Shown here in pieces: positions 1,441-62,765 of a DNA stretch of 64,000 bases. Every line of letters starts with the position of its first letter. Positions within the stretch are counted from its first letter, which is position 1. The DNA is taken from assembly GCF_004293625.1 (NCBI RefSeq), contig NZ_CP033040.1, forward strand, positions 2,433,001 through 2,497,000, read 5' to 3'. A model generated the notes under the pieces. It was given only the letters and a program-made list of their open reading frames with translations, was not told the origin of the DNA and did no database searches. The translations under genes were made by a program, and so were the position numbers. This DNA is from Thiomicrorhabdus indica. Lineage in GTDB: Bacteria > Pseudomonadota > Gammaproteobacteria > Thiomicrospirales > Thiomicrospiraceae.

Positions 1441-3214
1441 ACAAATCAGTCCTTTTGCCAAAGTCACCGGCGTCAATGGCAATATCGTTACCATTGAACA
1501 TCCTCATGGCCACTTGATGAAAAACGAAGTCGCTTATGTGCATGTCGGTGACGAAGCGTTAAAAGCAGAAGTGCTGCGTATCCGAGGCAAAACGGCCGAT
1601 TTGCAAGTCTACGAAGAAACCGCAGGCGTGCAAGTCGGTGACAAAGTCGAACTCACAAACGAACTGCTTTCTGCTGAACTTGGCCCGGGGCTTTTGGGTA
1701 AAGTTTATGATGGTCTACAAAACCCTTTACACTCTGTGGCTGGCTCTCACGGCTTTTTCCTTCCTCGCGGTAAATATCTGGATGCACTCGACAACGTACA
1801 CAAATGGGCGTTTAATCCGTTAGTTCGCTCCGGCGAAAAAGTCATTGCTAGCCAACCGATTGGTACAGTTCAAGAAGGTCGATTTACTCATAAAATCATG
1901 GTGCCTTTCAATCTAAAAGGCGAAGCGGAAATCACTTGGATTCAAGGCGGCAGTTTCAGTATTGATGAACCAATTGCTCGCATTCGTGACCAAAAAGGTC
2001 ATGAAGAAGTCATTACCTTAAAACAGAAATGGCCAGTGCGAATCCCAATTCCTGAAAAACTCATCGAAAAACGCATTGCGGAACGAAAGTTCCCCGATGA
2101 ACCGCTTGTGACCACTTTGCGTTTGATTGACACCTTCTTCCCGATTGCCAAAGGCGGAACCGCTTGTATTCCAGGGCCTTTCGGTGCAGGTAAAACCGTA
2201 TTACAAAGCTTGATCTCGCGCTATTCATCAGCAGACATCGTGATTGTCGTCGCTTGTGGTGAACGCGCCGGTGAAGTCGTCGAAACCATTGAAACCTTTG
2301 CAGAAATGAAAGACCCGAAAGGCGAAGGCACTCTGATGGAACGCACCATCGTTATCTGTAACACCTCGTCGATGCCAGTTGCGGCGCGAGAAGCTTCAAT
2401 CTATATGGGCGTGACCTTGGCAGAATACTACCGTCAAATGGGTTATGACACTCTGGTACTGGCGGATTCCACTTCTCGTTGGGCACAAGCCATGCGCGAA
2501 ACCTCTGGTCGTCTGGAAGAAATCCCGGGAGAAGAAGCTTTCCCGGCTTATCTGGATTCGGCGATTAAGAATATCTACGAGCGTGCAGGCGTAGTGGAAA
2601 CGTTTGATAAGCAAAAAGGCAGTTTAACTTTAATTGGTACAGTTTCACCGGCCGGTGGAAACTTTGAAGAACCAGTGACGCAATCAACGTTAAGCACGGT
2701 AAAAACGTTCCTTGGTTTGTCTTATGCCCGTGCTTATAAACGCTACTACCCAGCGATTGATCCGCTGATTTCATGGTCTCGTTACAGTTTGCAGCTAAAA
2801 GATTACTTTGATGAGCATATAGACCCAAACTGGACCAACAGCATTGAGCAAGTTCGCGAAATTCTGGTCAAAGCCGAGGGGATTGAACAGATGATGCAAG
2901 TGACCGGTGAAGAAGGGATTACTGAAAATGATTTTGTGCTGTTCCAGAAAGCCAAAATGCTGGATTTGGTCTATCTGCAACAAGATGCATTTGATCCGGT
3001 GGATGTCTCGGTTGACCTCAAACGCCAGCAAGAAAACTTCCTGCTATTGAAAAAAATCGTCGATACGGATTTTGAGTTTAATGAAAAATCTGACGCTAGT
3101 CAGTTTTTCACACGCATGACCGGTATCTTTAAAAATATGAACTACTCGGTCTATAACTCGGGCGAATATAACAAACACCTCAATGAAATTAATAAGATGA
3201 TTGAAGCTTATTAA
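1433..3214 (+). CDS. atpA: V/A-type ATP synthase catalytic subunit A
   Basis: Catalytic nucleotide-binding subunit of the V/A-type ATPase head. At 593 residues it matches the family. It shows the N-terminal beta-barrel, the long non-homologous insert that separates V/A-type A from F-type beta, the Walker A motif GPFGAGKT at residues 248-255, the segment CGERAGEV, and the Walker B region around [13 protein letters not shown]. The ATG overlaps the upstream stop codon. Subunit B would be expected next, but the following gene is dut on the other strand, with a hairpin repeat and a copy of the ACCGGCCGGT palindrome between. One copy of that palindrome is inside this gene at 2647, read as Pro-Ala-Gly. 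Confidence 0.95.
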
Positions 3215-3235
3215 AGCCTATTAAAGTCTATTAAC

Positions 3236-3263
3236 GGATTCCCACGCTTCTGCGTGGGAATCC
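3236..3263. repeat. REP-like hairpin between convergent genes
   Basis: A perfect inverted repeat: 12-base arms GGATTCCCACGC and GCGTGGGAATCC around a 4-base loop. It lies between the convergent 3' ends of subunit A and dut. It belongs to the same TTCCCACGC...GCGTGGGAA family as the hairpins near 9579 and 10265. With no T tract on either side it is more REP-like than a classical terminator, though it could protect mRNA ends. Confidence 0.75.
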
Positions 3264-3318
3264 ATAAGCTTGTGCCAACCGATGATTGAAACTCTACCGG
3301 CCGGTAGCTTATCAAACG

Positions 3319-3780
3319 TTACTTCGTTCCCGTTGACCCAAAGCCACCTTGCCCACGCTCGGTGTCATCACCAAACTCTTCCACCTCGGTAAACACCGGC
3401 TGTAACACTGGCACAATCACCATCTGTGCAATACGCTCACCCACTTCAACCTCATAAGCTGTATTTCCACGGTTCCAGCAAGAAACCATTAAAGGCCCCT
3501 GATAATCCGAGTCAATCAAACCCACTAAATTACCCAGCACAATACCGTGCTTGTGGCCAAGCCCCGAACGCGGTAACAGCATCGCCGCCAAGCCCGGATC
3601 ATCCAGATGAATTGCCATGCCGGTCGGAATCAACACTGTTTGCCCCGGCTCAATCGTCATTGGCTCATCAATGCATGCTCGCAAATCTAGCCCTGCCGAA
3701 CCTTTGGTACCGTAATGCGGCATTTCGATTTCATTGCCTAAACGCTTATCTAAAATCTTATATTGAACCTGAATCGTCAT
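3319..3780 (-). CDS. dut: Deoxyuridine 5'-triphosphate nucleotidohydrolase (dUTPase)
   Basis: Hydrolyses dUTP to dUMP and pyrophosphate, keeping uracil out of DNA and supplying the dTMP precursor; a cytosolic homotrimer. At 153 residues it has the usual bacterial length, and all five trimeric dUTPase motifs are visible in order: [28 protein letters not shown] with the catalytic Asp, GERIAQMV, and the C-terminal Gly-rich lid [10 protein letters not shown]. It stands alone, convergent with the V-type ATPase subunit A gene. In many gammaproteobacteria dut sits beside coaBC; here coaBC is 16 kb away. Confidence 0.97.
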
Positions 3781-10384: not shown

Positions 10385-10636
10385 GGTGTGTAGTGGGCTA
10401 ATTGCGAAAGGCGCAACCAAGAAACTCGATTACCTCTGTAATCCCCATTCATTTGTGTCGTTCCAGTCCCTGAGAGAAATCAGAATAAAATTAAATCTTT
10501 ACCGGCCGGTAACAGATAAGGGTGTTATTAGATCTACTGATTTCAGATAGTAAACCTTTCTAAAAAAACAGTGTTTGCCACAACCTTTTAGGCCTGCTTA
10601 TAATGGTCGTTACTGCGCATGCTCAAAAGGATTCTC
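10385..10636. other. Intergenic stretch before the cotransporter gene
   Basis: About 250 bases with no credible gene. It holds one ACCGGCCGGT copy at 10501 and must carry the promoter of the downstream cotransporter gene. The segment next to the pgm duplicate has no homology I recognise. Confidence 0.5.
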
Positions 10637-14782: not shown

Positions 14783-15079
14783 AAACGCCTCACTGTGTTG
14801 GGTTGAATTAGTCGATTCGTAAAATTATGTATAAATTATCAGAGCCACTTTATTAAAACTCTGGATAAATTCCTAGTACCGAATGTTAGAAAACCGAGGT
14901 TAGAGTTTGTAATCCGCTCTAAAATTAGAGAAATCATATGCCTTATCAAGTTTACCGGCCGGTGAAACTTCTCAAAATTGACATAAACTCTTGATTTTTT
15001 CATAAGCAAAATCTGATATAAATAATGCCAATTCAAGATTACAAAAAACTTTACCGGCCGGTCAAAAAGGATTTAACAA

Positions 15080-15703
15080 ATGTTTCAGAAAATTTCAGAA
15101 TTAGAAACCCCTCAAATTTATCATCATTTAGTGCATGGTGTCGTTCCACGCCCAATTGCCTGGGTTTCAACTCTGAGTAAGGAAGGTATCAGCAATCTAG
15201 CCCCCTACTCGTTTTTCAGTGTTGCCAGCGTTAATCCTCCCGTTTTGACAGTGACGGCTGTGCCATCACGCGATAAGCTTGAAAAAGACACCTTAGCCAA
15301 CCTTTTGGAGACCAAAGAATGTGTGGTAAATGTCGTTACTGAAGACGTGTTGGAAATCATGAATGAATCTTGTGCCGATTTTGCGCACAATCAAAGTGAA
15401 ATCGATGCTTTGAATATTGAAACTCTTGCCAGCGAAATGATTCAACCGGCCGGTATAAAAGCTGCCAAGGTGCGTTTTGAATGCACCCTACGCGACACCA
15501 TTGACATTGCAAAGCAACCGGCCGGTGGCGTTTTGATTTTGTTGGATGTTGTGGGCATTCACATTGATGACTCGGTTGCCGATGGCACTCAAATTGATGG
15601 CAAAACACTCAAAGCACTTGGGAAACTCGGAGGCAACGACTACAGCACGGTCAATGACCAAATTACTTTGGCTCGACCAAGCGCTCCAAAAACTTCTGCG
15701 TAA
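15080..15703 (+). CDS. Flavin reductase family protein (FMN-binding split barrel)
   Basis: A 207-residue protein of the DIM6/flavoredoxin type, predicted to bind FMN and to reduce flavin or transfer electrons. Family features are HGVVPRPIAWVSTLSKEG at the N-terminus, NLAPYSFFSVASVNPPVL (flavin phosphate and ring contacts), and a long beta-rich C-terminal half. The physiological partner is unknown. Two internal ACCGGCCGGT copies (15445, 15517) each encode Pro-Ala-Gly, and two more lie in its upstream region (14954, 15053), making this the densest cluster of the motif in the window. Confidence 0.87.
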   Translation: MFQKISELETPQIYHHLVHGVVPRPIAWVSTLSKEGISNLAPYSFFSVASVNPPVLTVTAVPSRDKLEKDTLANLLETKECVVNVVTEDVLEIMNESCADFAHNQSEIDALNIETLASEMIQPAGIKAAKVRFECTLRDTIDIAKQPAGGVLILLDVVGIHIDDSVADGTQIDGKTLKALGKLGGNDYSTVNDQITLARPSAPKTSA

Positions 15704-18288: not shown

Positions 18289-19476
18289 TCAATCGCCGTC
18301 AACTCTGCCAACAACTTGAAAACAGTTTTGATGCACACTTTTGAATGCTTGATAGGATTTTTGAATATCATACGACTGTATAAATTCAAAGGCCGCTTGA
18401 CCCCATAACACCCTTTTTTCATTATTTTGGAGTATTTCAGCCAAAGCTTCCACCCAAAGCGACTCATCATTAGCTTGGATGACTTGTCCATTTTGACCAT
18501 TTTCAATCAAGCTTTGTGGTCCACCAACATCTGACACCATACACCCCAAGCCACTGGCTTGCGCTTCCATGATCACTTGGCCCAAAGTATCGGTCACCGA
18601 TGGAAAAACAAACACTTCAGATGAGGCATACATTTGTGATAATTCTTCACCAACAATCGGCCCCAAAAAATAAATGTGTTCCGCTCGCAATCGATCTGCC
18701 CATTTTCGGTAACGGCCTTCACCAATCAAAACCAGATCAGCTTCAATGTGATAGGTTTCACGCATCATTTGCCAAACATTCACCAAAAATGGAATATTTT
18801 TTTCAATGTTGATACGCCCGACATAAAGCACTTTTAATCGGGAATCATTCAACCCAAAGGTTTGCCAAATTTGACGATTTTTATGCGCTGGTTGAAATTT
18901 CTGCAAATTGGTACCGGCCGGTAAAACCGAGGTTTTTTCATAGGCTAAACCAATGTCATGCGCCATCACTTCTCGGTAAGCATCTGAACGAGACAGCACC
19001 CATTCAAACGGCTCATAGAAACGTTGCATGACTTTATCCGTTTGTCGTTTTACCCAGTGCAAGCGCGTTAAATCGTAAAGGTAAGCCGGGAAGTCGGTGT
19101 GATAAGTACCCAACATTGGATAACCCAATGACTGAGCAACCGTTTTGGCTTTCCAGCCAAACGGCCCAGGTGTTGAGATATGCACCAAATCCGGCTTAAA
19201 TTGCTGCAAAATGTCAGCAATTGCCGCTTTCTTGCAAAAAACCAAATCCAGTTCTTGATAAAACGGCATAGGCAAACGCCATCGGTATTCTAAATTATGA
19301 ATGTAATCTTTATCAGGAATGGGCTTGGACGTACTGGTAATAATCTGCAAATCAAATTCTGCATCAGTTGCGGCCAACTCGCCCATATCTTGAATAAACC
19401 GTGACACGCCATTTAAATCGCCAAGGGTATCGGTAAACAGACAAACTCTCACAGCATTCTCCTGCACTGAAAACAA
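18289..19476 (-). CDS. Family 4 glycosyltransferase
   Basis: A 395-residue GT-B fold retaining glycosyltransferase. The N-terminal acceptor domain opens with VRVCLFTDTLGDLNGVSRFI and contains HISTPGPFGW and GTYHTDFPAYLYDLT, as in MgtA/PimB-like lipid glycosyltransferases. The C-terminal donor domain has VLYVGRINIEKN and the EX7E-type motif FPSVTDTLGQVIMEAQASG. Such enzymes often add sugars to diacylglycerol or phosphatidyl lipids, which would fit the phosphorus-free lipid gene elsewhere in this window, but the acceptor is not provable here. LPAGTN at 18913 is one of the Pro-Ala-Gly readings of the dispersed palindrome. Confidence 0.87.
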   Translation of the reverse strand: MFSVQENAVRVCLFTDTLGDLNGVSRFIQDMGELAATDAEFDLQIITSTSKPIPDKDYIHNLEYRWRLPMPFYQELDLVFCKKAAIADILQQFKPDLVHISTPGPFGWKAKTVAQSLGYPMLGTYHTDFPAYLYDLTRLHWVKRQTDKVMQRFYEPFEWVLSRSDAYREVMAHDIGLAYEKTSVLPAGTNLQKFQPAHKNRQIWQTFGLNDSRLKVLYVGRINIEKNIPFLVNVWQMMRETYHIEADLVLIGEGRYRKWADRLRAEHIYFLGPIVGEELSQMYASSEVFVFPSVTDTLGQVIMEAQASGLGCMVSDVGGPQSLIENGQNGQVIQANDESLWVEALAEILQNNEKRVLWGQAAFEFIQSYDIQKSYQAFKSVHQNCFQVVGRVDGD

Positions 19477-19564
19477 AGTTTCAGTCTAAAAAAATGCCTT
19501 AATTATTCGATGACATTCCATTGATAAAGTCGCGTCACATTTATGACAAACCTTACCGGCCGGT

Positions 19565-19731: not shown

Positions 19732-20931
19732 TTACGACTCCGCAATAAACTCCAACAGCTGGCGTGCTTGATCCTGCTTGGAAGAGGAACCCAAAGCCAC
19801 TTCTCGCTCGCGAGTCATTAAAGTCAACGCATTTTCAGACTGATCAAATCCAAGCTTAGCTCCAACTTGATTCGCACAAATCATATCCAAATTTTTCCGC
19901 TGTAATTTGTCGCGTGCATACGCCAACACATTTTGAGTTTCTGCCGCAAAACCCACCACAAACGGTTTATCGTCTTGATTCGCCACCCAAGCCACAATAT
20001 CTGGATTTTTGGTTAAGGTCAGTGTTAATTCATCTGAATCCGAGGACTTTTTGATTTTATGCTCTGCACTCATTGCACTTCGAAAATCGGCTACCGCCGC
20101 CGCGCTAATAAAGACTTGCGATTGCGCATAGCACTGTTTGACTTGCGAAAACATTTCCAAAGCAGAACGCACATCTACCCGATTGACACCGGCCGGTGTT
20201 TTTAAATTAACTGCTCCAGTGATCAGCGTGACTTTCGCCCCCAAAAAAGCAGCTTGTTCCGCAATCGCAAATCCCATTTTTCCAGAGCTACGATTGCCAA
20301 TAAAACGCACCGGATCAATATCTTCAAAGGTAGGGCCTGCTGTAATCAGCAATGCTCGATCTTGCCAAAACTCACCGGCCGGTAACGTTTGTGATAATTG
20401 CTGTTGCGCAAATAACTTCCACGATTCAAAAATTTCTTCGGGTTCAGGCATTCGGCCCGCGCCAACTTCCCCACATGCCTGCTCACCCTCCGCAGGTTCA
20501 AGCACATAAAAGTCGCGACCTTTAAGCACCTGAACATTTTCTTGAGTTGCCGCATTTTGCCACATCAAACGATTCATTGCCGGAGCCAAAACGACCGGCC
20601 GGTCAGTCGCTAAAATTAGGGTACTTAATAAATTATCCGCCACGCCATTGGCAAACTTTGCAATTGAATTTGCTGTTGCTGGTGCCACAACAATCCAGTC
20701 TGCCCAACGCGCCAACTCAATATGCCCCATTCCGGCTTCTTGGTTGGCATCAAATAAAGAATCACGCACCGGTTTTCCAGACAACGCCTGAAAACTAAGC
20801 GGCGCAATAAACTGCTTCGCCCCTTCGGTCATGACCACCTGTACTTGATGACCCGCTTTAATGAATAAACGACACAGTTCCAAGGATTTGTAGGCAGCAA
20901 TGCCACCAGTAACACCTAAAAGGATTTTCAT
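19732..20931 (-). CDS. coaBC: Bifunctional phosphopantothenoylcysteine decarboxylase / phosphopantothenate-cysteine ligase
   Basis: Catalyses steps two and three of CoA synthesis: ligation of cysteine to 4'-phosphopantothenate (CoaB) and FMN-dependent decarboxylation (CoaC). The N-terminal CoaC part shows GVTGGIAAYKSLEL, the active-site region IELARWADWIVVAPATANSIAKFANGVADNLL and PAMNRLMW; the C-terminal CoaB part begins at about residue 190 with ITAGPTFEDIDPVRFIGNRSSGKMG. The ATG at 20931 gives the usual start MKILLG; a TTG two codons earlier is less likely. Three ACCGGCCGGT copies lie inside it. With coaD and coaX in this window, three of the CoA pathway genes are here but unlinked. Confidence 0.96.
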   Translation of the reverse strand: MKILLGVTGGIAAYKSLELCRLFIKAGHQVQVVMTEGAKQFIAPLSFQALSGKPVRDSLFDANQEAGMGHIELARWADWIVVAPATANSIAKFANGVADNLLSTLILATDRPVVLAPAMNRLMWQNAATQENVQVLKGRDFYVLEPAEGEQACGEVGAGRMPEPEEIFESWKLFAQQQLSQTLPAGEFWQDRALLITAGPTFEDIDPVRFIGNRSSGKMGFAIAEQAAFLGAKVTLITGAVNLKTPAGVNRVDVRSALEMFSQVKQCYAQSQVFISAAAVADFRSAMSAEHKIKKSSDSDELTLTLTKNPDIVAWVANQDDKPFVVGFAAETQNVLAYARDKLQRKNLDMICANQVGAKLGFDQSENALTLMTREREVALGSSSKQDQARQLLEFIAES

Positions 20932-21038
20932 ATTCAATTCAGCTTGTTTTTTTAAAATAAAAAATCATTCTACTCGGTCTTATCTTTGGTTAAAGGGTTT
21001 TTCAAGTTCTACCGGCCGGTCATTTTTAGGAAAACAGC

Positions 21039-40807: not shown

Positions 40808-40914
40808 ATAACTATAAAAAAACCGGACTTTACCGGCCGGTCAAGTTAGTTATGCTTTGCATAATTCTTTAACACGCGCCTTCTCATTCTTGAAAAGGAG
40901 CTTATTTTCATCAA

Positions 40915-41718
40915 TTAATCAGCCACCGCTAACAGTACATGCGAGGCCTTAACCAGAGCACAGGCTCGGCCGCCTTTTTTCAAGCCCATCGCTTCCACAG
41001 AACCATTCGTCACAATAGCAGAAATTTTATTTCCGCCTTCTAAAGCAATCGTCACATCACTATTCACAGCACCGGCATCTAGCTGAACGATCTCTCCGCA
41101 AAATTGATTGCGTGCAGACGTTTTACAACCTTCCATTTCTTCAGCTAGCAACACCCAACTCGCTTTAATCAACGCATAAACATCAGAACCTGCTTCTAAA
41201 TTTAAACGCTCCAAACTTGAAGGGGTTATTTGTGCAACCACTTCAGTCGACTTACCGACGGATAACACCACTTCACAATTAACTGAACCGGCCTGTATGC
41301 TTTTCACGGTGCCATGAAATAAATTACGAGCACTGGTTTTCATTGAAATCTTCCTCATGACATCTAATTGAGATAACACTCCCGGAGAGAGTTCTTCCAA
41401 ATGACGCATCCAATGTTGCATTTGGTCTTGAAATAAAATGTAAGCATTCATTAACTGCTTGCCGGCATCCGTCAACAACATTCCCCCACCGCCAGCACCA
41501 CCTTTTGAGGCATTGACTAACTTTACACCGGCAGCTTCATTCATAGCCTCAACCGCTTGCCATGCTCCCTTATAAGTCATTCCACAGGCTTTAGCCGCTT
41601 TGGACAGTGAACCCAAAGAATCAACTTTTTTGAGCAACTCTAAACGACGCTGTCCTGAGCGCGTCTGTTTGGAACCCAGTAAAAAAGATTGGACTAAATG
41701 TTCAGGAGAATCATTCAC
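40915..41718 (-). CDS. modE: Molybdate-responsive transcriptional regulator ModE
   Basis: Represses molybdate uptake genes when molybdate is plentiful. 267 residues: an N-terminal winged helix of LysR type (RRLELLKKVDSLGSLSKAAKACGMTYKGAWQAVEAMNE), the GGAGGGGMLLT segment, and two C-terminal Mop/TOBE domains (about residues 127-195 and 200-265, each opening with SARN and carrying SVEAMGL or SSLERLNL) that bind molybdate at the dimer interface. Located upstream of modABC on the same strand, with a candidate operator between. Confidence 0.95.
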   Translation of the reverse strand: MNDSPEHLVQSFLLGSKQTRSGQRRLELLKKVDSLGSLSKAAKACGMTYKGAWQAVEAMNEAAGVKLVNASKGGAGGGGMLLTDAGKQLMNAYILFQDQMQHWMRHLEELSPGVLSQLDVMRKISMKTSARNLFHGTVKSIQAGSVNCEVVLSVGKSTEVVAQITPSSLERLNLEAGSDVYALIKASWVLLAEEMEGCKTSARNQFCGEIVQLDAGAVNSDVTIALEGGNKISAIVTNGSVEAMGLKKGGRACALVKASHVLLAVAD

Positions 41719-41772: not shown

Positions 41773-42951
41773 TCAAGCCTTTTTCGGAACATCAACACCC
41801 ACAATTTGGCAAAAACTTCGCATTACCAACTCCAGAAGGTGATCATTAAACTGATAATTGGGATGATGACAAGCATATTGATAGGCTTGGGCTTCTGAAT
41901 CAGCCATGCCAATTAAAGCAAAAGCCCCCGGTCTTTCACGCAGATAATAACTGAAATCCTCAGAGGCCATAATCGGTACTGCCATATCGACATTTGAGAA
42001 ACCTTCGCCCAATTCATTTTGTAACACTTTCCGAAAATGACCGGCCGGTAAAGCGTGATTAATCGTCGCTGGATAGTAAGGCTTAATTTTAACCTGTGCA
42101 TGCACACCATAGGTTTTGGCTGTATCTTCTGCGATTTGTTCAATTAATTGCGTTAAAGGCTCATACCATTGGGGCTCTGAAAATCGTAAGCTTCCAGCCA
42201 AACGGGCTGTTTGAGGCGTAACATTGGACGCTGAGCTGTCTGTTTCAAACTGAGTAACACTCACCACTGTCGCAGCTTGCGGCGGCATTCGTCGACTAAC
42301 AATCTGTTGCAAATTCAAACTAATCGCTGCACCTGCCAGCAGTGGATCACGGCAGGTTTCAGGCTGTGAAGCATGACCTCCAATTCCCTCAAGTTGAATT
42401 TCAAAAGCACCGTTACCCGACATGACCGCGCCATCGGGACAAACCGCAGTACCAAATTCCATTGCTGGCCAATTGTGCCAGCCGTAAACTTCATCGACTC
42501 CCTCCAAAGCACCGTCTTCAATCATTTTCAAGGCACCATGGCCACCTTCTTCTGCCGGTTGAAAAAGAAGCGTAACGGAGTTTGTAAGCTGTGATTCATT
42601 CTGTTTAAGCCATAATGCTGTACCAAGCAAAGCGGCCATATGTCCGTCATGGCCGCATGCATGCATTTTCCCTTCAACAGTGGAAGCGAACTCTACCTCT
42701 GATGTTTCCTCAATTGGAAGCGCATCCATATCTGCACGAAGCGCAATATTCTTCCCACCTTCTTGTTTCATATTGGGCGCAATGACACCAACTGTTCCAA
42801 ACGTTGCACAAGCTCGCCATTCAATACCCCAGTCGGTTAAGACCTGACGAATACGCTCTGCGGTATTTTCTTCTTGCCAAGTCAACTCAGGGTGCTGATG
42901 AAACCAATGACGCATCTGGGTTGCAACTTTTATTATTTCCTGCCACTGCAT
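41773..42951 (-). CDS. M20-family amidohydrolase (hippurate/N-acyl-amino-acid hydrolase type)
   Basis: A 392-residue dimetal hydrolase of the HipO/AbgB/ILR1 group, which removes acyl groups from amino acids. Signature features are MRHWFHQHPELTWQE, the metal ligands in HACGHDGHMAALLG, the catalytic LFQPAEEGGHGA and the final metal His in ACHHPNYQF. The lid domain lies between about 185 and 300. Cytosolic, no signal peptide. The natural substrate is not predictable. It is on the same strand as modE, 54 bases upstream of it, but no functional link is evident. One ACCGGCCGGT reads Pro-Ala-Gly. Confidence 0.9.
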   Translation of the reverse strand: MQWQEIIKVATQMRHWFHQHPELTWQEENTAERIRQVLTDWGIEWRACATFGTVGVIAPNMKQEGGKNIALRADMDALPIEETSEVEFASTVEGKMHACGHDGHMAALLGTALWLKQNESQLTNSVTLLFQPAEEGGHGALKMIEDGALEGVDEVYGWHNWPAMEFGTAVCPDGAVMSGNGAFEIQLEGIGGHASQPETCRDPLLAGAAISLNLQQIVSRRMPPQAATVVSVTQFETDSSASNVTPQTARLAGSLRFSEPQWYEPLTQLIEQIAEDTAKTYGVHAQVKIKPYYPATINHALPAGHFRKVLQNELGEGFSNVDMAVPIMASEDFSYYLRERPGAFALIGMADSEAQAYQYACHHPNYQFNDHLLELVMRSFCQIVGVDVPKKA

Positions 42952-46210: not shown

Positions 46211-46244
46211 TTAAAATATGCTACCGGCCGGTAACATATTTTAA
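46211..46244. terminator. 34-bp palindrome built around ACCGGCCGGT, bidirectional terminator candidate
   Basis: TTAAAATATG and CATATTTTAA flank CT-ACCGGCCGGT-AA with the same centre, and only one base pair in the 34 is mismatched. It lies between two convergent genes, and each arm provides a run of T or A, so it could terminate transcription both ways. Confidence 0.7.
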
Positions 46245-47632: not shown

Positions 47633-47848
47633 TTATTTTCTCCTAAGAAAGATGATGGGATAAATCAAACTTCAATTGTGACTAAGCTCGCTAGTCATTG
47701 AATTAATTAAGTAATGCATAGAATAACCAAATAGCCAACTATCGTCTAATTGAACTTTTACAAGACAGTAATAGCAATTTTCTATCACACTTAAAAAATC
47801 AAAAGTTTATAACTATTTAAAAACCCTGTTTATTTACCGGCCGGTAAA

Positions 47849-48346: not shown

Positions 48347-48401
48347 TTAATCTTCTCTTCTTTTGAAAAACAATGACAAATTGTCACCGGCCGGTAAAAA
48401 A

Positions 48402-49076
48402 CTAATCACTCGCTTTACAAACAAAATATCCATAGCGCACTTGCGAGGTGGTTTTCTCTTTTTGAATTTCCCAACCGGCCGGTAAACTAGGTAACTCTTG
48501 AGATTTTTCTTGTTCTAAATACAAAATACTCTTCGAATCCACATAGCCATTTTCAAACAGTTTTTGCAAAATTGAGGGCAAAAAATCTTTATGAAATGGA
48601 GGATCTAAAAAAACCAGATCAAATGCTTTAGCTATCGGCTGCTCAAGCCAATCAAGCGCATCAGCTTGGAGCATATTTACTCGTTCACCAGACACATTTA
48701 AAGTGTGTAAATTTTGCTCTAGCTGGCTGGCAACCTTCGGTGAAAACTCCACAAACTGCACAAAAGCAGCTCCTCTTGATAAAGCTTCGAGTCCCAAAGC
48801 CCCCGTGCCTGCAAACAAATCTAAACAGCGTGCGCCGGGGACATCGAATTGAAACCAGTTGAAAATCGTTTCTCGTACACGATCTGATGTCGGACGCAAG
48901 CCTTCAGACACCAGTACTGGCAATTTCCGGCCGCGCCAATCGCCACCAATCACCCTTACCTGTCCCTGAGATGAGTGAACACCCAAAACATTTTTAGTCG
49001 ACCGTTTACTTTTCGATTGAGAAACCTGTTTGCTGTTGCGAGTATTCTGCCGGTTTTTTTTTCGATTCATAATCAT
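48402..49076 (-). CDS. rsmD: 16S rRNA (guanine(966)-N(2))-methyltransferase
   Basis: Methylates G966 of 16S rRNA using S-adenosylmethionine. In 224 residues, a basic Lys/Asn/Ser-rich N-terminal extension (about 35 residues) precedes VRVIGGDWRGRKLPV and LRPTSDRVRETIFNWF; the SAM-binding motif is LDLFAGTGALGLEALSRGA, and the catalytic NPPF-type motif appears as LVFLDPPFHKDF. The second Met (MNRKKN) may be the real start. Upstream of coaD. Confidence 0.95.
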   Translation of the reverse strand: MIMNRKKNRQNTRNSKQVSQSKSKRSTKNVLGVHSSQGQVRVIGGDWRGRKLPVLVSEGLRPTSDRVRETIFNWFQFDVPGARCLDLFAGTGALGLEALSRGAAFVQFVEFSPKVASQLEQNLHTLNVSGERVNMLQADALDWLEQPIAKAFDLVFLDPPFHKDFLPSILQKLFENGYVDSKSILYLEQEKSQELPSLPAGWEIQKEKTTSQVRYGYFVCKASD

Positions 49077-51448: not shown

Positions 51449-53236
51449 ATGATTCATATTCAAAATGCAATTGATGAAAAGTGGCCTAACCTAAAAAACA
51501 AGCCAATTTACCCGCTACTCATCAAGCTGCTTAAATCGCTCATGCATGAAAATGAAATTAACGAATTTATGCTCACACATCAACATCTGAATGGCTTTGC
51601 GTTTTTAGACCAAGTTCTCGAACATTTTGATTTCAGTTATCAGGTCAATTACAAGCAATTGCAATCCATTCCAGCAGAAGGCCGAGTAATTATCGTAGCA
51701 AACCACCCGATTGGCTCACTTGATGGACTGGCATTATTAAAACTCGTTCGCTCAGTACGCCCTGATGTCAAAATCGTTGCCAATGATTTACTGTCCAAGA
51801 TTACCCCTTTGCAAGAAGTATTTTTGTCGGTCGACAATATGGGAGAGAAAGGCTATAAAAGCCAACTTAAGGCAATGCTTAGTGCCTTGCAGTCTGAAGA
51901 AGCCGTGATTATTTTCCCAGCCGGTGAAGTTTCACGAATCCGCCCAAATGGCGTTCGTGATGGCAAATGGAAAGCAGGGTTCTTAAAACTTGCTGAAAAA
52001 TCCAATGCACCGATTTTACCCATCCTGATTGATGCGAAAAACTCTCAGATGTTTTATGCCCTTTCCATGCTATACAAACCGCTTGGCACCTTAATGCTGG
52101 TGCAAGAGATGTTTAATAAAAAAGCCCAGCAAATCGAGTTTCATATTGGCAAGCCAATTCCACAAAGTGCGATTGCTACTTGGCCAACGAAGGGCAAAAC
52201 CCTAGCGAACCAATTTCGAAAATATCTCTATCGTTTAGCCAAACCGAAAAAACTGGCCAAAAAACCCTTTATTGCAACACTTGAAACCATTGCACACCCT
52301 GTCGAGCGAAAAGCCCTAAAGAATGCCATTCAACTGGGTCAAAAGCTTGGTGAAACTTCAGATGGGAAAATGATTTATCTATTTGACTATGATGCCCAAT
52401 CGCCGGTCATGCAAGAAATTGGCCGTCTGCGCGAATTCACATTTCGCAGTGTGGAAGAAGGTACTGGAAAGCGCTTAGATTTAGACGCATTTGATGTGTT
52501 CTATCAACATTTAGTGCTTTGGGATGCACAGGATTGGGAAATCGTTGGTGCTTATCGTTTAGGTAACTGTGCAAAAATTTTACAACAACATACCCCACCT
52601 ATCTCCACCGAAGAATCTTTACCGGCCGGTAGTCTTTCTTCCAATCAAGCCTTACCGTTCTACAGTGCAACACTGTTTGAGTTTCAAGAAGAGCTCCTAA
52701 AATATCTTCCAAACTCCATTGAACTCGGTCGCAGCTTTGTGCAACCCAAATATTGGGGCAAACGCAGCTTGGACTATTTATGGTACGGTATTGGCGCTTA
52801 TCTAAAACAACACCCAGAAATTCACTATTTATTCGGTCCTGTCACTCTAAGCAACGCTTATCCCGTCATGGCAAAAGAGATGATTGCCAGCTTTTATTTA
52901 AAACAATTTGGTGACTACCAATCTTTGGTCAAAGCAACACGTCCATTCGATATATCAGCGAACACACATGAAATTGCAGATGCAGAATTTATTCAGGATT
53001 ACAAAGAAAGTTACAAAAAGCTGAATGCCCTACTCAACTTGCAAGGCGTAAAAGTACCCACTTTATTTAAGCAGTATTCAGAATTGTGTGAAGACAAAGG
53101 TTGCCGTTTTATTGATTTTAATATCGACCCTGACTTTTCCGATTGCATTGATGCCTTTATTTTTGTTGAACTCGACAAAATCAAAGCGAAAAAACGCGAA
53201 CGCTACATGGGAGAAATTTCGGTCGGTGTAGCGTAA
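51449..53236 (+). CDS. OlsF-like bifunctional acyltransferase (ornithine lipid synthesis)
   Basis: A 595-residue fusion. The N-terminal half (about residues 20-260) is a PlsC/OlsA-type O-acyltransferase with NHPIGSLDG (84-93) and IIFPAGEVSR; the C-terminal half (about 290-590) is an OlsB/hemolysin-like GNAT N-acyltransferase (LREFTFRSVEEGTGKRLDLDAFD, ELGRSFVQPKYWGKRSLDYLWYGIGAYL). This is the OlsF layout described in Serratia, which makes phosphorus-free ornithine lipids. It is a single gene without linked partners. Members of the group without proven activity are also called lysophospholipid acyltransferase-like. One ACCGGCCGGT reads Pro-Ala-Gly. Confidence 0.82.
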   Translation: MIHIQNAIDEKWPNLKNKPIYPLLIKLLKSLMHENEINEFMLTHQHLNGFAFLDQVLEHFDFSYQVNYKQLQSIPAEGRVIIVANHPIGSLDGLALLKLVRSVRPDVKIVANDLLSKITPLQEVFLSVDNMGEKGYKSQLKAMLSALQSEEAVIIFPAGEVSRIRPNGVRDGKWKAGFLKLAEKSNAPILPILIDAKNSQMFYALSMLYKPLGTLMLVQEMFNKKAQQIEFHIGKPIPQSAIATWPTKGKTLANQFRKYLYRLAKPKKLAKKPFIATLETIAHPVERKALKNAIQLGQKLGETSDGKMIYLFDYDAQSPVMQEIGRLREFTFRSVEEGTGKRLDLDAFDVFYQHLVLWDAQDWEIVGAYRLGNCAKILQQHTPPISTEESLPAGSLSSNQALPFYSATLFEFQEELLKYLPNSIELGRSFVQPKYWGKRSLDYLWYGIGAYLKQHPEIHYLFGPVTLSNAYPVMAKEMIASFYLKQFGDYQSLVKATRPFDISANTHEIADAEFIQDYKESYKKLNALLNLQGVKVPTLFKQYSELCEDKGCRFIDFNIDPDFSDCIDAFIFVELDKIKAKKRERYMGEISVGVA

Positions 53237-54655: not shown

Positions 54656-56086
54656 TTACAGCGCTCCTTTATCAGAATTGTTTTCATCAAGCAGAGCAAC
54701 CTTACCGGCCGGTGGGCTTTCAGTCTTCGGAAATAAAACGGCTACCGTTTGCTTGTCACGATGCAGGTATTTTTTTGCCACCGCTTGGACTTGTTCAGGG
54801 GTGACCTTTCTTAAATTTTCCACCCAGTTGTCCAATAAATCCGCAGGCAAACCGACACTTAACAATGATCCAAGAACCGTCGCTTGTGATTGAATTGAAT
54901 CCTGATGATAGATATATTGCGCCTCACTTTGCGCCAAAACTCGCTCTAACTCTAGCTTGGTAACGGGTTGCTGTTTCAACTTCTCAATTTCGGCCCAAAT
55001 CGCTTCTTCAACATCTTTCGGGGATTTACCTTCTGCTGCCGTAGCAGAAAATGTAAACAAGGTGGTTAAACGATCCGTACCGTCATAACCTGCGCCTGCA
55101 CCCACAACAACGTTGGCTTTTCGAACTAGGTTCTTAGCAATACGTGACGAATCATCACCATCCAAAATAGAGGCCAAGACACTCAATGCATAGACTTCTT
55201 GTTTTTCAGTATCCGTTTTGGCTGTCACCAAGGTTGGCGTATGGAAGCCCATGTAAACTTTAGTTAATTCAGTTTTCGCTTTTAAGGTGATCCGACGTTC
55301 GCCTTCTTGAGCAATCTCTATTTGAGGCTTTGGTGGAGTAATGGCTTCGGGCTCATAAACACCATAATATTGTTTGGCCAACTCATACACTTTGTCGGGT
55401 TGCACATCTCCAACCACAACTAAAATCGCATTATTGGGTGCATACCATTTTTGATACCAAGCACGAGCATCCTCTGCCTTCCAGTTTTCGACATCACTCA
55501 TCCAACCAATAATAGGATGATGTGCTGGCGAGTTCATAAAAGCGGTCGCCTTGAATTGTTCATAAAGCTTACTACCGGGCTTATCTTCCACTCGCCAGCG
55601 TCGCTCTTCTGCAACAACATCCCGCTCCTTATAAAACTCCTCATCAGAGACTACGACGTTGCGCATACGGTCAGCTTCCAACTCCATCACACGCTCAAGG
55701 TGCTGTTTACCAACGACTTGGTAGTACGCCGTATAATCGGTTGAAGTGAAGGCATTTTCCTTCCCCCCCAAACGAGCAACAATTTTTGAGAACTCTCCAG
55801 GCTCATGGGTTTCAGTGCCTTTGAACATCATGTGTTCAAGCATGTGAGAAATTCCTGTATTGCCATTTTGTTCAAAATTCGAACCGATTTTATACCAGAC
55901 CTGATGCACTACAACCGGTGAGCGATGATCTTGCTTTACCACCACTTGCATGCCATTATCCAATTGGTATTGTGTGACAACTGTTTCGGCGATGTGCTGA
56001 CCAGTTTTTTGTGATGCCGTCCCCGAATGAGCCATTTGCCACGGCAAACAAACCGCCGCACACATCAACGCTACCTTTGCGATCAT
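54656..56086 (-). CDS. M16-family zinc protease, catalytic partner
   Basis: A 476-residue exported zinc peptidase with a signal peptide (to about residue 21). The inverted zinc motif is HMLEH in TGISHMLEHMMFKGTE, with the distal Glu in VVAEERRWRVED. Two M16 domains follow the insulinase/pitrilysin pattern (GNTGISHMLEHM, LGGKENAFTSTDYTAYYQ). It is first in the operon, its stop directly abutting the start of the zinc-less partner. Substrates are probably peptides or misfolded proteins in the periplasm. A GC-poor promoter region with an ACCGGCCGGT copy lies upstream, divergent from ftsY. Confidence 0.93.
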   Translation of the reverse strand: MIAKVALMCAAVCLPWQMAHSGTASQKTGQHIAETVVTQYQLDNGMQVVVKQDHRSPVVVHQVWYKIGSNFEQNGNTGISHMLEHMMFKGTETHEPGEFSKIVARLGGKENAFTSTDYTAYYQVVGKQHLERVMELEADRMRNVVVSDEEFYKERDVVAEERRWRVEDKPGSKLYEQFKATAFMNSPAHHPIIGWMSDVENWKAEDARAWYQKWYAPNNAILVVVGDVQPDKVYELAKQYYGVYEPEAITPPKPQIEIAQEGERRITLKAKTELTKVYMGFHTPTLVTAKTDTEKQEVYALSVLASILDGDDSSRIAKNLVRKANVVVGAGAGYDGTDRLTTLFTFSATAAEGKSPKDVEEAIWAEIEKLKQQPVTKLELERVLAQSEAQYIYHQDSIQSQATVLGSLLSVGLPADLLDNWVENLRKVTPEQVQAVAKKYLHRDKQTVAVLFPKTESPPAGKVALLDENNSDKGAL

Positions 56087-56282
56087 ATTGGACTCCTAAT
56101 TTCTTTTATATTGGTTTGATACTTCAAAACTTTCGATGAATTCTATTTTCTACCGGCCGGTTAATTCCGATTAAATTGCTTTATAATAACCGGCATTAAT
56201 TTTTTCAATATCTGTCGTGTATTGTCATTATTGTGAATTCAATACACCACAGTATTAATAAAGACTGGAATAGGATAACGGA

Positions 56283-57557
56283 ATGTTTGGTTTTTTTCGC
56301 CGAAATAAGAAGCAAGATGAAGCAACACAAGCAGAACAGCAAGAGTCACAAGAGCTAAATGAAGCGGTAACCGAAGCACCAACGTCTGCCCCGACTGAAA
56401 CCGTTACCAAAGCCCCAACACCTCCTCCGACTGAAACCGTTACTGAAGCGCCAACACCTGCGCCGACTGAAACCGTTACCGAAGCCCCAACACCTGCGCC
56501 GACTGAAACCGTTACCGAAGCGCCAACACCAGCCCCAACTGAAACCGTTACTGAAGCGCCAACACCTGCGCGGACTCAAATCGTTCCCGAAGAAGAACCA
56601 AAGAAAAAAGGCTTTTTCGCTCGTTTAAAAGAAGGCCTAAGTAAGACTCGTAAAACTTTTACCGACAGCCTTGCAAACCTAGTGCTTGGTAAAAAAGAAA
56701 TCGATGACGAGTTACTCGAAGATTTAGAAATGATTCTTTTAACTGCGGATGTGGGGATTGATGCAACCGACCGCATTATTCAAAACCTGACCGATCAAGT
56801 TTCTCGCAAAGAATTAAGCGACCCTCAAACATTAATTGCCTCCCTTAAAGTACAATTAAATCAAATTCTGGAGCCAATCAATCGCCCATTGGAAATTGAC
56901 GAATTCCTAAAAACGACTGGTGGCCCGTACGTGATTCTTATGGTTGGCATTAATGGCGTCGGAAAAACCACAACAATTGGTAAACTCGCCAAAAAATTCC
57001 AGAATGAAGGAAAGTCAATCATGCTAGCCGCGGGTGATACTTTCCGTGCAGCAGCGGTCGAACAATTAGAAACTTGGGGCGAACGCAACAATGTTCCAGT
57101 GATCGCTCAAAAAACCGGAGCGGATTCTGCTGCGGTAATCTTCGATGCAATGCAATCTGCCAAAGCGAAAAACATCGATGTTTTAATCGCTGACACAGCC
57201 GGCCGACTGCATACACAATCGAATTTAATGGAAGAATTGAAAAAAGTGAAGCGCGTGATTGCAAAAGTGGATGACACAGCACCGCATGAAGTGATGCTTG
57301 TCATTGATGCAGGAACGGGGCAAAACGCATTGAACCAAACCAAGCAGTTCCATGAAGCCGTTGGCGTCTCAGGAATAACCCTAACCAAACTTGATGGTAC
57401 CGCGAAAGGCGGCATTGTATATGCATTAGCGGAACAGACACAGGTTCCGATTCGTTATATTGGTATTGGTGAGCAAATTGATGATTTGCGCCCATTCAAC
57501 AGTGAGGACTTTACCAATGCCCTTTTCACTCAAAATGAGACGGCTTCCAAAACATAG
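56283..57557 (+). CDS. ftsY: Signal recognition particle receptor FtsY
   Basis: SRP receptor GTPase that delivers ribosome-nascent chains to the membrane translocon. The 424-residue protein has an acidic A domain (about 1-110), then N (about 125-200) and G domains: GINGVGKTTTIGKLA (G1, from 222), DTFRAAA (G2), DTAGRLHTQSNLMEEL (G3), TKLDGTAKGG (G4). The A domain holds six tandem 12-residue repeats of type ETVTEAPTPAPT (residues 27-98), which is unusual for FtsY and likely to vary in length between strains. A one-mismatch palindrome (GCCGGCCGGT) follows the stop codon. Confidence 0.96.
   Translation: MFGFFRRNKKQDEATQAEQQESQELNEAVTEAPTSAPTETVTKAPTPPPTETVTEAPTPAPTETVTEAPTPAPTETVTEAPTPAPTETVTEAPTPARTQIVPEEEPKKKGFFARLKEGLSKTRKTFTDSLANLVLGKKEIDDELLEDLEMILLTADVGIDATDRIIQNLTDQVSRKELSDPQTLIASLKVQLNQILEPINRPLEIDEFLKTTGGPYVILMVGINGVGKTTTIGKLAKKFQNEGKSIMLAAGDTFRAAAVEQLETWGERNNVPVIAQKTGADSAAVIFDAMQSAKAKNIDVLIADTAGRLHTQSNLMEELKKVKRVIAKVDDTAPHEVMLVIDAGTGQNALNQTKQFHEAVGVSGITLTKLDGTAKGGIVYALAEQTQVPIRYIGIGEQIDDLRPFNSEDFTNALFTQNETASKT
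56361..56576 (+). repeat. 36-bp coding minisatellite in ftsY, six units
   Basis: Six tandem 36-bp units encode ETVTEAPTPAPT and variants (first unit EAVTEAPTSAPT, second ETVTKAPTPPPT, last ending PART). The middle three units are near identical in DNA. The array is in frame, so unit loss or gain changes only the spacer length of the FtsY A domain. Confidence 0.95.
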
Positions 57558-57574
57558 CCGGCCGGTAAAGATGT

Positions 57575-58988: not shown

Positions 58989-59027
58989 TCGATTAAAAAT
59001 GCACCGGCCGGTATAAATTACAGGCAT

Positions 59028-60316: not shown

Positions 60317-60319
60317 AAC

Positions 60320-60949: not shown

Positions 60950-60955
60950 AGAAAC

Positions 60956-61031: not shown

Positions 61032-61056
61032 GACATGTCAAAATAGACATATAAAA

Positions 61057-61132
61057 TGGTGCCGACATCAAGACTTGAACTTGAAACCTACTGATTACAA
61101 ATCAGTTGCACTACCAATTGTGCTATGTCGGC
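61057..61132 (-). tRNA. tRNA-Thr (anticodon TGT), copy 2
   Basis: 76 nt, identical in sequence to the copy at 60956-61031 and separated from it by 25 bases, giving a 101-base tandem period. Full cloverleaf with encoded CCA. Both are probably cut from one precursor that ends at the terminator at 60914-60949. Confidence 0.96.
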
Positions 61133-61199
61133 ATCTGGAGGCGTATTATAGGCAAAAATTTTAACCTGTCAAACGCTTTGCAAAAAAAAATTAAAAAAT

Positions 61200-61985
61200 T
61201 TAAGATTTCACAGAGTCAACGATTCTTAGCATCCCTTTTAGAACTAAATCTTCTTCTAAAATCACATTGGAATCGATTAAATTCACAAAGGTTTTAGCAT
61301 CACCTCCGGTTAAAAAGACTTTAAACTCAGTTTGCAGTTGAGCATTTAAATCTATAATAATTTGGTTGATAAATGCCGCTGTCATATATAAGGTGCCACC
61401 AAGAATTCCAGACTCTGTATTGGTGGCTAACAATGTTGACTGTGCATCGAATTCATCACTGGACTGATTAGGTTCCAAAAATAAATTCAAATCAGCTGTG
61501 TCTTTGGCCAATGCATTTCGAAGACTTGTTAATCCCGGAACAATAAAGCCGCCTAGATGCTTACCATCCCGAACCGCATCAACGGTAACAGCCGTACCAA
61601 AATCAATGACAATAAATGGAGAGGGGTTGCTTGTAGAGGTCAAAGACATTCCACCCTGCATAGCCATCCAACGATCAGAGCCTAGCAAGTGAAAGTCATC
61701 GTAACCACACTCTAAAGAGCAGCACGATTGTTGTGAACATAATTCAATAGGAAACAATTGCCATTTCGACTGGATAATATTCTTAATCGAATCTAGATTT
61801 TTTGCGTTGGCAACACAGCAATAATAAACTTGATCTACAGAACTCTCGAAATGGGCAAAGAAATGGCTTTCAGGATCTGCTAAAAAATCCGTCAGTAAAA
61901 CACCACCATAAAATTGATAATCACTATTATCAACAACTGCCCATTTAATGCGCGAGTTGCCAATATCTAAAAATACTTTTTTCAT
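61200..61985 (-). CDS. coaX: Type III pantothenate kinase
   Basis: First step of CoA synthesis, ATP-dependent phosphorylation of pantothenate by the CoaX type, which does not respond to CoA feedback and needs a monovalent cation. 261 residues with the ASKHA motifs: FLDIGNSRIKWAVV (phosphate 1), LGSDRWMAMQGG, VIDFGTAVTVDAV (phosphate 2) and FLTGGDAKTF (adenosine). It lies 3 bases after birA on the same strand; the birA-coaX pair is common in bacteria. It is transcribed toward the tRNA-Thr pair. Confidence 0.95.
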   Translation of the reverse strand: MKKVFLDIGNSRIKWAVVDNSDYQFYGGVLLTDFLADPESHFFAHFESSVDQVYYCCVANAKNLDSIKNIIQSKWQLFPIELCSQQSCCSLECGYDDFHLLGSDRWMAMQGGMSLTSTSNPSPFIVIDFGTAVTVDAVRDGKHLGGFIVPGLTSLRNALAKDTADLNLFLEPNQSSDEFDAQSTLLATNTESGILGGTLYMTAAFINQIIIDLNAQLQTEFKVFLTGGDAKTFVNLIDSNVILEEDLVLKGMLRIVDSVKS

Positions 61986-61988
61986 AAT

Positions 61989-62765
61989 CTAATTCGGTCT
62001 AATTGATACCGAGCCGGAACAATAGGTCTTTATGTTTCCACCTAGCTCTATTTCGACTTCTCCGCGCATGTTAACGCCTCGGTATACACCCTTAATTGGA
62101 GTGCCGCTATCATACACAATTACCGATTGGCCATCCTTGAATTTATCAAGTTTTTTGAAACTCTCCATAAAATACTGAAAGCCGTTGCTTTCAAAATTTT
62201 GAATATAGTCAAAGATGTTTTCCAATACAGAGATAAATACCAATTCTTCTGAACGCTTACATAACTGAATCGATGAAAAGGGATAATCTTTACCGGCCGG
62301 TAACCATTTAGTTTTTTGGTAAGAAATATTCATTCCAATACCAAACACCATCCAAGTTTTATTTTTTTCAATCTTTACGGATTCTATGAGAATACCAGCC
62401 ACTTTACCATCGGTATTCCAGATATCATTGGGCCACTTTATCAGTAAACCCTGCTGAATTTGTTTGGATAAAGCCTCAATAACCGCTAAACCTATTACAG
62501 AACTTAAGCCAGCACAACGTTGAATAGGAAGCTGAATCGGCAAACAAAAGCTGAATGTCCAGGATTCATTATCGGATTCCCAAGCTCGTTGTTGTTGACC
62601 ATAGCCTGCAGTTTGATGCTGTGTTATACAAACACTCCGTTCGGGTAGTTTTGCGTTGAATTTTGTTTTCAGAAACCGATTGGTCGAGTCAATTTCGTCC
62701 AATAAGTATGTCTTAAATTCTGGACATGAACGCGTAAGAAGGCGCTTTAAATCGTAAAATCGCAT
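61989..62765 (-). CDS. birA: Biotin-[acetyl-CoA-carboxylase] ligase, no DNA-binding domain
   Basis: Attaches biotin to the biotin carboxyl carrier protein of acetyl-CoA carboxylase. The 258-residue enzyme starts directly in the catalytic domain (YLLDEIDSTNRFLK), so the N-terminal helix-turn-helix of repressor-type BirA is absent. The biotin-binding GRGRRG-type loop is diverged (QTAGYGQQQRAWES), while LIKWPNDIWNTDGKVAGILIE and the C-terminal SH3-like part (GVYRGVNMRGEVEIEL) are normal. An IS3-family element ends 39 bases upstream of its start codon. One ACCGGCCGGT copy reads Pro-Ala-Gly. Confidence 0.92.
   Translation of the reverse strand: MRFYDLKRLLTRSCPEFKTYLLDEIDSTNRFLKTKFNAKLPERSVCITQHQTAGYGQQQRAWESDNESWTFSFCLPIQLPIQRCAGLSSVIGLAVIEALSKQIQQGLLIKWPNDIWNTDGKVAGILIESVKIEKNKTWMVFGIGMNISYQKTKWLPAGKDYPFSSIQLCKRSEELVFISVLENIFDYIQNFESNGFQYFMESFKKLDKFKDGQSVIVYDSGTPIKGVYRGVNMRGEVEIELGGNIKTYCSGSVSIRPN

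Follow-up and report, generated by a model that had tools for sequence, protein, structure and literature searches.

To our knowledge, none of the known DNA-uptake signals is palindromic; the receptor of the Neisseriaceae signal (DUS) is ComP, and ComN/PpdA is a predicted receptor. Self-specific DNA uptake by way of a genomic word has been described for two families only, the Neisseriaceae and the Pasteurellaceae (PMC12616744, PMC1626085), the latter using the USS, whose Haemophilus type, AAGTGCGGT, has an AT-rich 3' segment (PMC1626085, PMC12616744). Both signals are spaced somewhat more regularly than random, and having many more exact than one-mismatch copies makes them unlike regulatory sites; DUS have no flanking motifs (PMC1626085). 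The traits listed in that work are the basis on which we compare the word ACCGGCCGGT with USS and DUS. Another described class comprises HIP1 and the alternate HIPs of cyanobacteria, highly iterated GC-rich palindromes, HIP1 giving way to another word in some lineages (an alternate HIP with RCCGGY occurs in one cyanobacterium); HIP1-rich genomes that lack a CGATCG enzyme exist (PMC4390886).

The window analysed here is a stretch of 64,000 nucleotides of Thiomicrorhabdus indica (NZ_CP033040.1 of assembly GCF_004293625.1, positions 2,433,001-2,497,000, forward strand). The genome, to which all whole-genome motif counts refer, measures 2.83 Mb and resembles that of a sulfur bacterium. As the sequence-only reading had counted, the window holds 30 exact copies of ACCGGCCGGT (Table 1), against a mean of 0.02 and a maximum of 1 in 100 dinucleotide shuffles; its statement that half are intergenic also holds (15 of 30), coding and intergenic copies being sorted by a simple purpose-written gene caller. 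Of its three near-misses, the one at 57557 differs by one mismatch and those at 25096 and 47972 by more than one; the other one-mismatch copies are at 28247 and 41287.

Table 1. Copies of the word in the window. Exact copies were located by word search, supplemented as given in the last column.
Positions	Copy	Context	Further basis
2647..2656	exact	coding (SPAGG); V-type ATPase subunit A-like gene, judged by eye	gene caller, protein read
3296..3305	exact	intergenic, convergent genes either side	gene caller
10501..10510	exact	intergenic	gene caller
14954..14963	exact	intergenic, divergent genes	gene caller
15053..15062	exact	intergenic; 99 bp from copy at 14954	gene caller
15445..15454	exact	coding (PAG frame), flavin-reductase-like gene	homologue alignment
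15517..15526	exact	coding; sole aligned homologue gapped at site	homologue alignment
18913..18922	exact	coding	gene caller
19555..19564	exact	intergenic	gene caller
20188..20197	exact	coding	gene caller
20374..20383	exact	coding	gene caller
20594..20603	exact	coding (RPV frame); homologue ungapped	homologue alignment
21011..21020	exact	intergenic, divergent genes	gene caller
22325..22334	exact	coding (PAG frame), flavocytochrome c sulfide dehydrogenase-like gene	homologue alignment
24992..25001	exact	coding (TGR frame); 2 homologues ungapped	homologue alignment
32736..32745	exact	intergenic	gene caller
36105..36114	exact	intergenic, divergent genes	gene caller
36355..36364	exact	intergenic, divergent genes	gene caller
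36815..36824	exact	coding (LPAG); gene reading by eye like Fpg; relatives LPKD, LPRN, LPSA, ungapped (n=3)	homologue alignment
40832..40841	exact	intergenic	gene caller
42040..42049	exact	coding (PAG frame), M20-peptidase-like gene	homologue alignment
46223..46232	exact	intergenic, convergent genes either side	gene caller
47836..47845	exact	intergenic	gene caller
48386..48395	exact	intergenic	gene caller
48474..48483	exact	coding (PAG frame); 88 bp from copy at 48386	homologue alignment
52621..52630	exact	coding (PAG frame)	homologue alignment
54704..54713	exact	coding	gene caller
56152..56161	exact	intergenic, divergent genes	gene caller
59003..59012	exact	intergenic, convergent genes either side	gene caller
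62292..62301	exact	coding	gene caller
28247..28256	one mismatch, ACTGGCCGGT		mismatch search
41287..41296	one mismatch, ACCGGCCTGT		mismatch search
57557..57566	one mismatch, GCCGGCCGGT		mismatch search

Genome-wide, ACCGGCCGGT occurs 1025 times (one per 2.8 kb on average) and its backwards-written control once, while one-mismatch copies number 285, so that the consensus is strict. A 464-kb sample of the genome contained 176 exact copies where a first-order Markov model predicts 0.11, an excess of about 1500-fold; a genome count near the Markov expectation, which would have undone the sequence-only reading, was thus not what we found. Of these copies 108 are coding and 68 intergenic, the latter in 11.7% of the sampled bases, giving a density between genes 4.8-fold that within them and highest in convergent spacers (2.44 per kb, with 1.27 in divergent and 1.12 in tandem ones). 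Gaps between copies are no more even than random (coefficient of variation, CV, 0.95 for 155 gaps, and 1.12 for 99 gaps where random placement gives 0.82-1.20), and copies are sparser in six neighbouring samples of 20 kb each (1.41-2.13 Mb), which lie at the change in GC skew and past it.

Among the 62 genomes of the order that we compared (32 of them of the genus; coded G001 and so on), 28 carry ACCAGGCCTGGT, at 38-718 copies each, and T. indica has none. We read ACCGGCCGGT as the T. indica dialect of a family-wide word, for which the relatives use ACCAGGCCTGGT with flanks of their own. An asymmetric form, AACAGGCCGGG, is found 511 times in G021 and 300 times in G004, and divides evenly between the strands (255/256 and 146/154), showing no orientation bias; only this dialect allows such a test, since a palindrome such as ACCGGCCGGT has no orientation by which strand bias or the orientation of close pairs could be defined. 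Clade-specific dialects, a trait of USS and DUS, are present in the order. In the motif-poor groups (G023/17/01/12/28, G013/24, G020/26/11, G014, G003 and G053/55/57), no other such iterated word was seen in 38-119 kb of each. Exact 14-mers searched in a virus collection hit 85 and 78 stretches, almost all with a single site and the best with three; a phage-like contig carries the relatives' word three times within 11 kb.

The flanks in T. indica follow a 24-bp consensus, AAWnTTT-ACCGGCCGGT-AAAnWTT, in which agreement ends 12 bp from the dyad, with no second AT-rich segment beyond, and 37 of the 39 alignable coding copies have a site that is ungapped in at least one homologue (gaps being scored within the site's four residues alone, and 69 of the 108 coding copies are without an aligned homologue). 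Copies arise by substitution, not insertion. Because the flanks are unrelated past 12 bp and the homologues ungapped, we reject a short mobile or copied repeat as hardly credible (the sequence-only reading had named a place within one longer mobile repeat as fatal to its view), for all the uniformity of the core and the five close pairs that are identical letter for letter (the four of them that were fetched share their upstream 60 bases). Such close pairs number 44 genome-wide, where random density would give about 10 by simple arithmetic; the 15 inspected are convergent (6) or tandem (9), none coding or divergent, and each lies 12-52 bp from a stop codon, four being copies of one gene end. 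Their hairpins, with energies between about -22 and -34 kcal/mol, make the pairs behind genes terminator-like, and they may end transcription; G021 has three inverted pairs, two of them with a long T run. An intrinsic transcription-terminator word and nothing else would explain these strong hairpins and the dense convergent spacers, but it would leave aside all except at most 88 of the 1025 copies, and a lone copy forms a short stem at most. With most sampled copies lying within genes, we discarded this explanation as very improbable; the transcription-end hairpin of the earlier reading suits the close pairs and fails for single copies.

A HIP-type origin, in which mismatch repair, either methylation-directed or short-patch, creates the word where a methyltransferase acts (the Elhai 2015 model), would fit an iterated GC-rich palindrome born by substitution. 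ACCGGCCGGT contains two overlapping RCCGGY sites, RCCGGY being also found in the alternate HIP of one cyanobacterium, and a C5 enzyme (PF00145) is found in motif-rich G019, G009, G030 and G007. Against this, T. indica gave no match to PF00145 (search covering 32 genomes of the genus) or to PF01555 (N4/N6; searched in all 62), motif-rich G015, G016, G022, G027 and G010 gave none above cut-off to either, and motif-poor G003, G013 and G024 carry the C5 enzyme; the arms extend to 12 bp on either side of the dyad, and an asymmetric dialect exists. Absence of both families from T. indica argues against a HIP1-type cause, which we consider improbable and do not uphold; the resemblance to HIP1 that the earlier reading saw is formal, lying in the iteration, GC-rich palindrome and lineage-specific words, whereas word and arms differ, and its methylation site found no enzyme of these two families. 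Harder to set aside is the main rival, in which selection maintains the word as a site bound by a dimeric protein, abundant inside the cell, with a role in organising or marking the chromosome (a nucleoid, segregation or repair protein). Such a protein would leave this kind of sharp, symmetric 24-bp footprint with A/T arms, and the similar densities of tandem and divergent spacers, the sparser samples around the skew change and the otherwise random spacing agree with it. We nevertheless judge it unlikely: a one-armed version in two species (its arms read in G021) is odd for a symmetric dimer, the ratio of 1025 exact to 285 one-mismatch copies is of the kind called unlike regulatory sites (PMC1626085), the arms match those of a known uptake signal, and moving hundreds of sites to a new dialect by selection on each would be hard.

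The outer arm averaged over relatives is GGTCAATTTT, equal to the arm of the Haemophilus uptake signal, and at positions +5..+13 the mean over 11 groups of relatives (T. indica and G021 left out) is GTCAATTTT, as in the extended Haemophilus USS (p 0.00015, 20,000 shuffles), with p 0.0009 for the Actinobacillus type and 0.73 for the Neisseria DUS. This test leaves aside every position that the search word fixes, and its positions were chosen post hoc after the whole arm including the centre had given no significant match to the Haemophilus USS (p 0.93), the central GGCC being different. Like the Pasteurellaceae USS, the word has hundreds to a thousand copies, a strict consensus, a non-coding excess, an origin by substitution, close pairs and clade-specific dialects. 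It differs in being mostly palindromic, in its GGCC centre with arms on both sides, in its family, in lacking the second AT-rich segment and regular spacing in T. indica, and in being sparser than USS and DUS (about one per kb). With the Neisseriaceae DUS it shares dialects within a family, copy number and terminator-like inverted pairs, but DUS has no resemblance in sequence, no flanking motifs and no palindrome.

We favour, as rather probable, the reading that ACCGGCCGGT with its A/T arms is a mostly palindromic signal for DNA uptake in natural transformation, which would add a third family to the two known. Among the roles listed by the sequence-only reading, the evidence speaks most for an uptake mark. 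The argument draws on the 1025 copies here and on the 28 of 62 genomes with 38-718 copies of another dialect, on the preponderance of exact copies, the non-coding excess and substitution origin, on the 44 close pairs, the strand-balanced asymmetric dialect and the Haemophilus-like outer arms, and on the presence of ComEC, ComEA and prepilins with no PF00145 or PF01555 match. We count against it the palindrome, the random spacing and low density, the null whole-arm comparison and missing AT-rich segment, the phage-like contig, and the occurrence of ComEC and ComEA in motif-free genomes too.

Under the uptake reading, the word would be recognised at the cell surface by a DNA receptor, probably a minor pilin, belonging to the type IV pilus/competence machinery. 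Cells would then prefer their own species' DNA at uptake, and alleles bearing the word would enter them and recombine more often. Copies would then accumulate by point substitution at sites of low harm, between genes and in tolerant loops, to about a thousand; a change of receptor would let the dialect drift, to ACCAGGCCTGGT with its own flanks in relatives and to a one-armed form in two, and close pairs may have been re-used as terminators. It is possible, if less likely than not, that this family marks its DNA for self-uptake by a palindrome readable from either strand, amounting to two inverted half-signals with Haemophilus-type outer arms, that one gammaproteobacterial receptor lineage stands behind both, and that one-armed dialects bridge palindromic and one-sided signals. 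If the word is an uptake mark, this third, Thiomicrorhabdus-like family would offer many dialects, with gains and losses in one genus, so that one could test directly how uptake specificity originates and turns over, and look for the receptor by comparison. Otherwise a site that occurs a thousand times, changes its dialect and has no known binder still calls for an explanation.

T. indica has ComEC and ComEA, and of its ten prepilin matches with E no higher than 0.01, nine are above cut-off. Across the order, ComEC is present in 56 and ComEA in 53 of the 62 genomes, and prepilins occur in each of the 13 genomes searched for them, whether rich or poor in the motif. Since motif-free genomes carry both ComEC and ComEA, these genes do not discriminate; neither they (62 genomes) nor prepilins (13 genomes) correlate with the motif, and we dropped their presence as an explanation of where it occurs. 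Solo pilins were noted in G015, G030 and G022.

The palindromic 10-mer ACCGGCCGGT, counted 30 times in the window by the sequence-only reading, was recovered at all 30 positions on recount, and it occurs 1025 times in the whole genome, where the reversed word used as a control occurs once. The comparison with a Markov background proposed in that reading bears out the excess: 176 copies are present against 0.11 expected under a first-order model in a 464-kb sample (the window together with 20 stretches of 20 kb each, set at even distances along the genome). At no more than one mismatch the genome holds 1310 such sites, hence 285 one-off copies, and the reversed control 51 in all. Density varies along the chromosome: 14 samples carry 6-11 copies per 20 kb, and six neighbouring samples (L034-L039) carry 2-6; this low-density stretch starts near the change in GC skew (1.43-1.55 Mb) and lies on one side of it only.

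When both sides of the 176 copies were folded onto one another at the dyad, the arms showed A at +6 to +8 (frequency 0.55-0.58), no clear base at +9, either A or T at +10, and T at the next two positions (0.56-0.58), with flanks close to background past +12. The site is therefore a palindrome of 24 bp, AAWnTTTACCGGCCGGTAAAnWTT, built around a rigid core of 10 bp. The 464-kb sample has 47 one-mismatch copies, and 29 of them deviate at the outermost core base. By the calls of a simple, purpose-made gene caller, 108 of the 176 copies lie within genes and 68 in intergenic DNA, which constitutes 11.7% of the sample, so that the word is about 4.8-fold denser there; per kilobase it is most frequent in convergent spacers (2.44), followed by divergent (1.27) and tandem ones (1.12). 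Most coding copies (79/108) are read in the frame xxA CCG GCC GGT (Pro-Ala-Gly). Homologues from relatives' DNA (at least 40% identity, site covered) were available for 39 coding copies: in 37, at least one homologue runs without a gap over the site's four residues, and in two every homologue is gapped; overall, gaps fall at the site in 5 of 59 alignments, some alignments being poor beside it. Most copies therefore originated by substitution in place. An Fpg-like gene has LPAG in the window and LPKD, LPRN or LPSA in relatives (five loci found; of the named ones the closest come from Thiomicrorhabdus, two at 62-64%, and from a Thiotrichales MAG at 62%).

Thirty-one other species of the genus carry only 0-15 copies of ACCGGCCGGT each, and 20-kb samples of relatives revealed a different word, the 12-mer ACCAGGCCTGGT, which is absent from the window's genome. 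Of 62 genomes from the order, 28 carry 38-718 copies, three carry 16-25 and the remaining 31 carry 0-6 (reversed control, 0 in each). In a draw of 369 genomes from the class, no member outside the family exceeds five copies. Flanks are lineage specific: CAAWT 3' of the core in G019, AA-TT in G030, A[AG]CAGGCCTG words in G005, G008, G018 and G025, and further lineages with flanks of their own. In G021 the word is one-sided (AAACTCAACAGGCCGGGT), with A/T on a single side only (21 sites). The window's arm, CCGGTAAAnWTT, differs from that of G030, CCTGGTAAnTT, at +3, +5 and +6 only (ungapped, dyad-aligned). On a midpoint-rooted ComEC tree of 41 genomes, a gene that may itself have recombined, carriers of ACCAGGCCTGGT are scattered, falling in four genera and, within the window's genus, in two clades, and G008 additionally has 38 copies; this scatter points to a 12-mer that was probably ancestral, was lost in several clades and was replaced in the window's species. 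The latter is the sole species with the ACCGGCCGGT dialect, and its ComEC (L156) shows the longest terminal branch of the genus, at 1.54 changes per column against 1.32 for the second longest.

In the cyanobacterial genomes that Elhai considered, overrepresented words are reported to have a putative cognate methyltransferase, and HIP1-rich genomes lacking the CGATCG enzyme are noted as well (excerpts of PMC4390886). Profile searches of the window's genome gave no match to C5 (PF00145) or PF01555 methyltransferases and thus, for these two families, no word-methyltransferase link as in cyanobacterial HIPs. Within the genus, motif-rich genomes occur with a C5 enzyme (G019, G009, G030, G007) and without a match above cut-off (G015, G016, G022, G027, G010), and three motif-poor genomes have one (G003, G013, G024). 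Close pairs look terminator-like: ACCGGCCGGT-N(3-30)-ACCGGCCGGT occurs 44 times in the genome against about 10 expected by plain arithmetic from random density (control, 0), and among the first 15 pairs, inspected as loci, none is coding, none lies between divergent genes, all have a stop codon 12-52 bp away, and predicted folding is about -22 to -34 kcal/mol. Three inverted pairs were seen in G021, 24-26 bp apart, and the two that run into a T stretch resemble intrinsic terminators. Five of the 44 pairs are identical in sequence and the four fetched ones have 60 upstream bases in common, indicating copies of one gene end, with the pair carried by a duplicated or mobile gene.

The uptake sequences of Pasteurellaceae (USS) and Neisseriaceae (DUS) are described, in the sections of PMC1626085 consulted, as occurring about once per kb without orientation bias and with a preference for non-coding DNA. 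Their spacing is said to be somewhat regular, apart from some inverted pairs that lie close together; exact copies outnumber one-off ones, copies arise by substitution, and the USS also has an AT-rich segment directly after the core, A's first and T's last. Here, all these traits were found except density, one per 2.8 kb against about one per kb, and regular spacing, which was not found; strand balance is testable on the asymmetric dialect only, where AACAGGCCGGG shows no bias (255/256 in G021, 146/154 in G004). Given this match, we favour the reading of ACCGGCCGGT as a DNA-uptake signal, in which word-bearing DNA would be taken up preferentially through a specific receptor, a drive that would accumulate the word. 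The window's genome has ComEC, ComEA and two groups of prepilin genes; ComEC and ComEA are found in motif-free relatives too, which is not decisive because many competent bacteria are described as unselective in their DNA uptake (PMC1626085, in part). An IMG/VR phage-like contig has three ACCAGGCCTGGT in 11 kb, two between mechanical open frames, and is perhaps a phage of the family carrying the host word.

The outer arm also resembles the Haemophilus USS. With the window's species and G021 set aside, log-odds were averaged across 11 groups of relatives at +5 to +13, positions left free by the search word CAGGCCTG. The result is GTCAATTTT, which the extended Haemophilus USS, AAAGTGCGGTCAATTTT (PMC12616744, in part), holds exactly, after a G matching +4. 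Against shuffled signals p is 0.00015 for this USS, 0.0009 for the Actinobacillus type and, in contrast, 0.73 for the Neisseria DUS; groups vary singly, and G046, G050/56 and G035/42 show the arm poorly. An earlier test of the whole arm, fixed centre included, was not significant (p 0.93) because the family's centre, GGCC, differs from the USS; since the +5 to +13 test was framed after it, we regard the resemblance as suggestive. Pasteurellaceae and Neisseriaceae are, in the part of PMC12616744 seen, the only families known with uptake words, and titles naming such words among the matches listed concern one or the other. Judged by title, the open-access literature has ACCGGCCGGT only in the context of metal-mediated base pairs and, among the matches listed, nothing on ACCAGGCCTGGT or its parts as a genomic motif; open-access searches for uptake sequences with Thiomicrospira or Piscirickettsia returned nothing, nor did open-access searches for competence with Hydrogenovibrio, and for Thiomicrorhabdus with palindrome, one of the two papers returned speaks, in the excerpts available, of CRISPR only.

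Coordinates of word-related features and of neighbouring observations
Feature	Location	Remarks
One-off copies of ACCGGCCGGT (three)	window 28247, 41287, 57557	
Low-density stretch	G000 (window's genome), C1 ~1.41-2.13 Mb	
Repeated gene end with pair (L211, L212, L215, L217)	G000:C1:477752, 486540, 540636, 762300	
IMG/VR phage-like contig	L251:1067-7683	
V-type ATPase subunit-like genes	window 61-3214	by eye; unusual in a gammaproteobacterium
Two adjacent paralogous genes, ~900 residues	window 29865-35521	periplasmic binding domains + PAS and GGDEF end, by eye
Dense short repeats (L079)	G053:C1:1-20000	28 copies of CCTAGCCGC + neighbours; unrelated to the palindrome
Eight copies of GTGGGAACGA (L081)	G056:C1:1-20000	perhaps a CRISPR array
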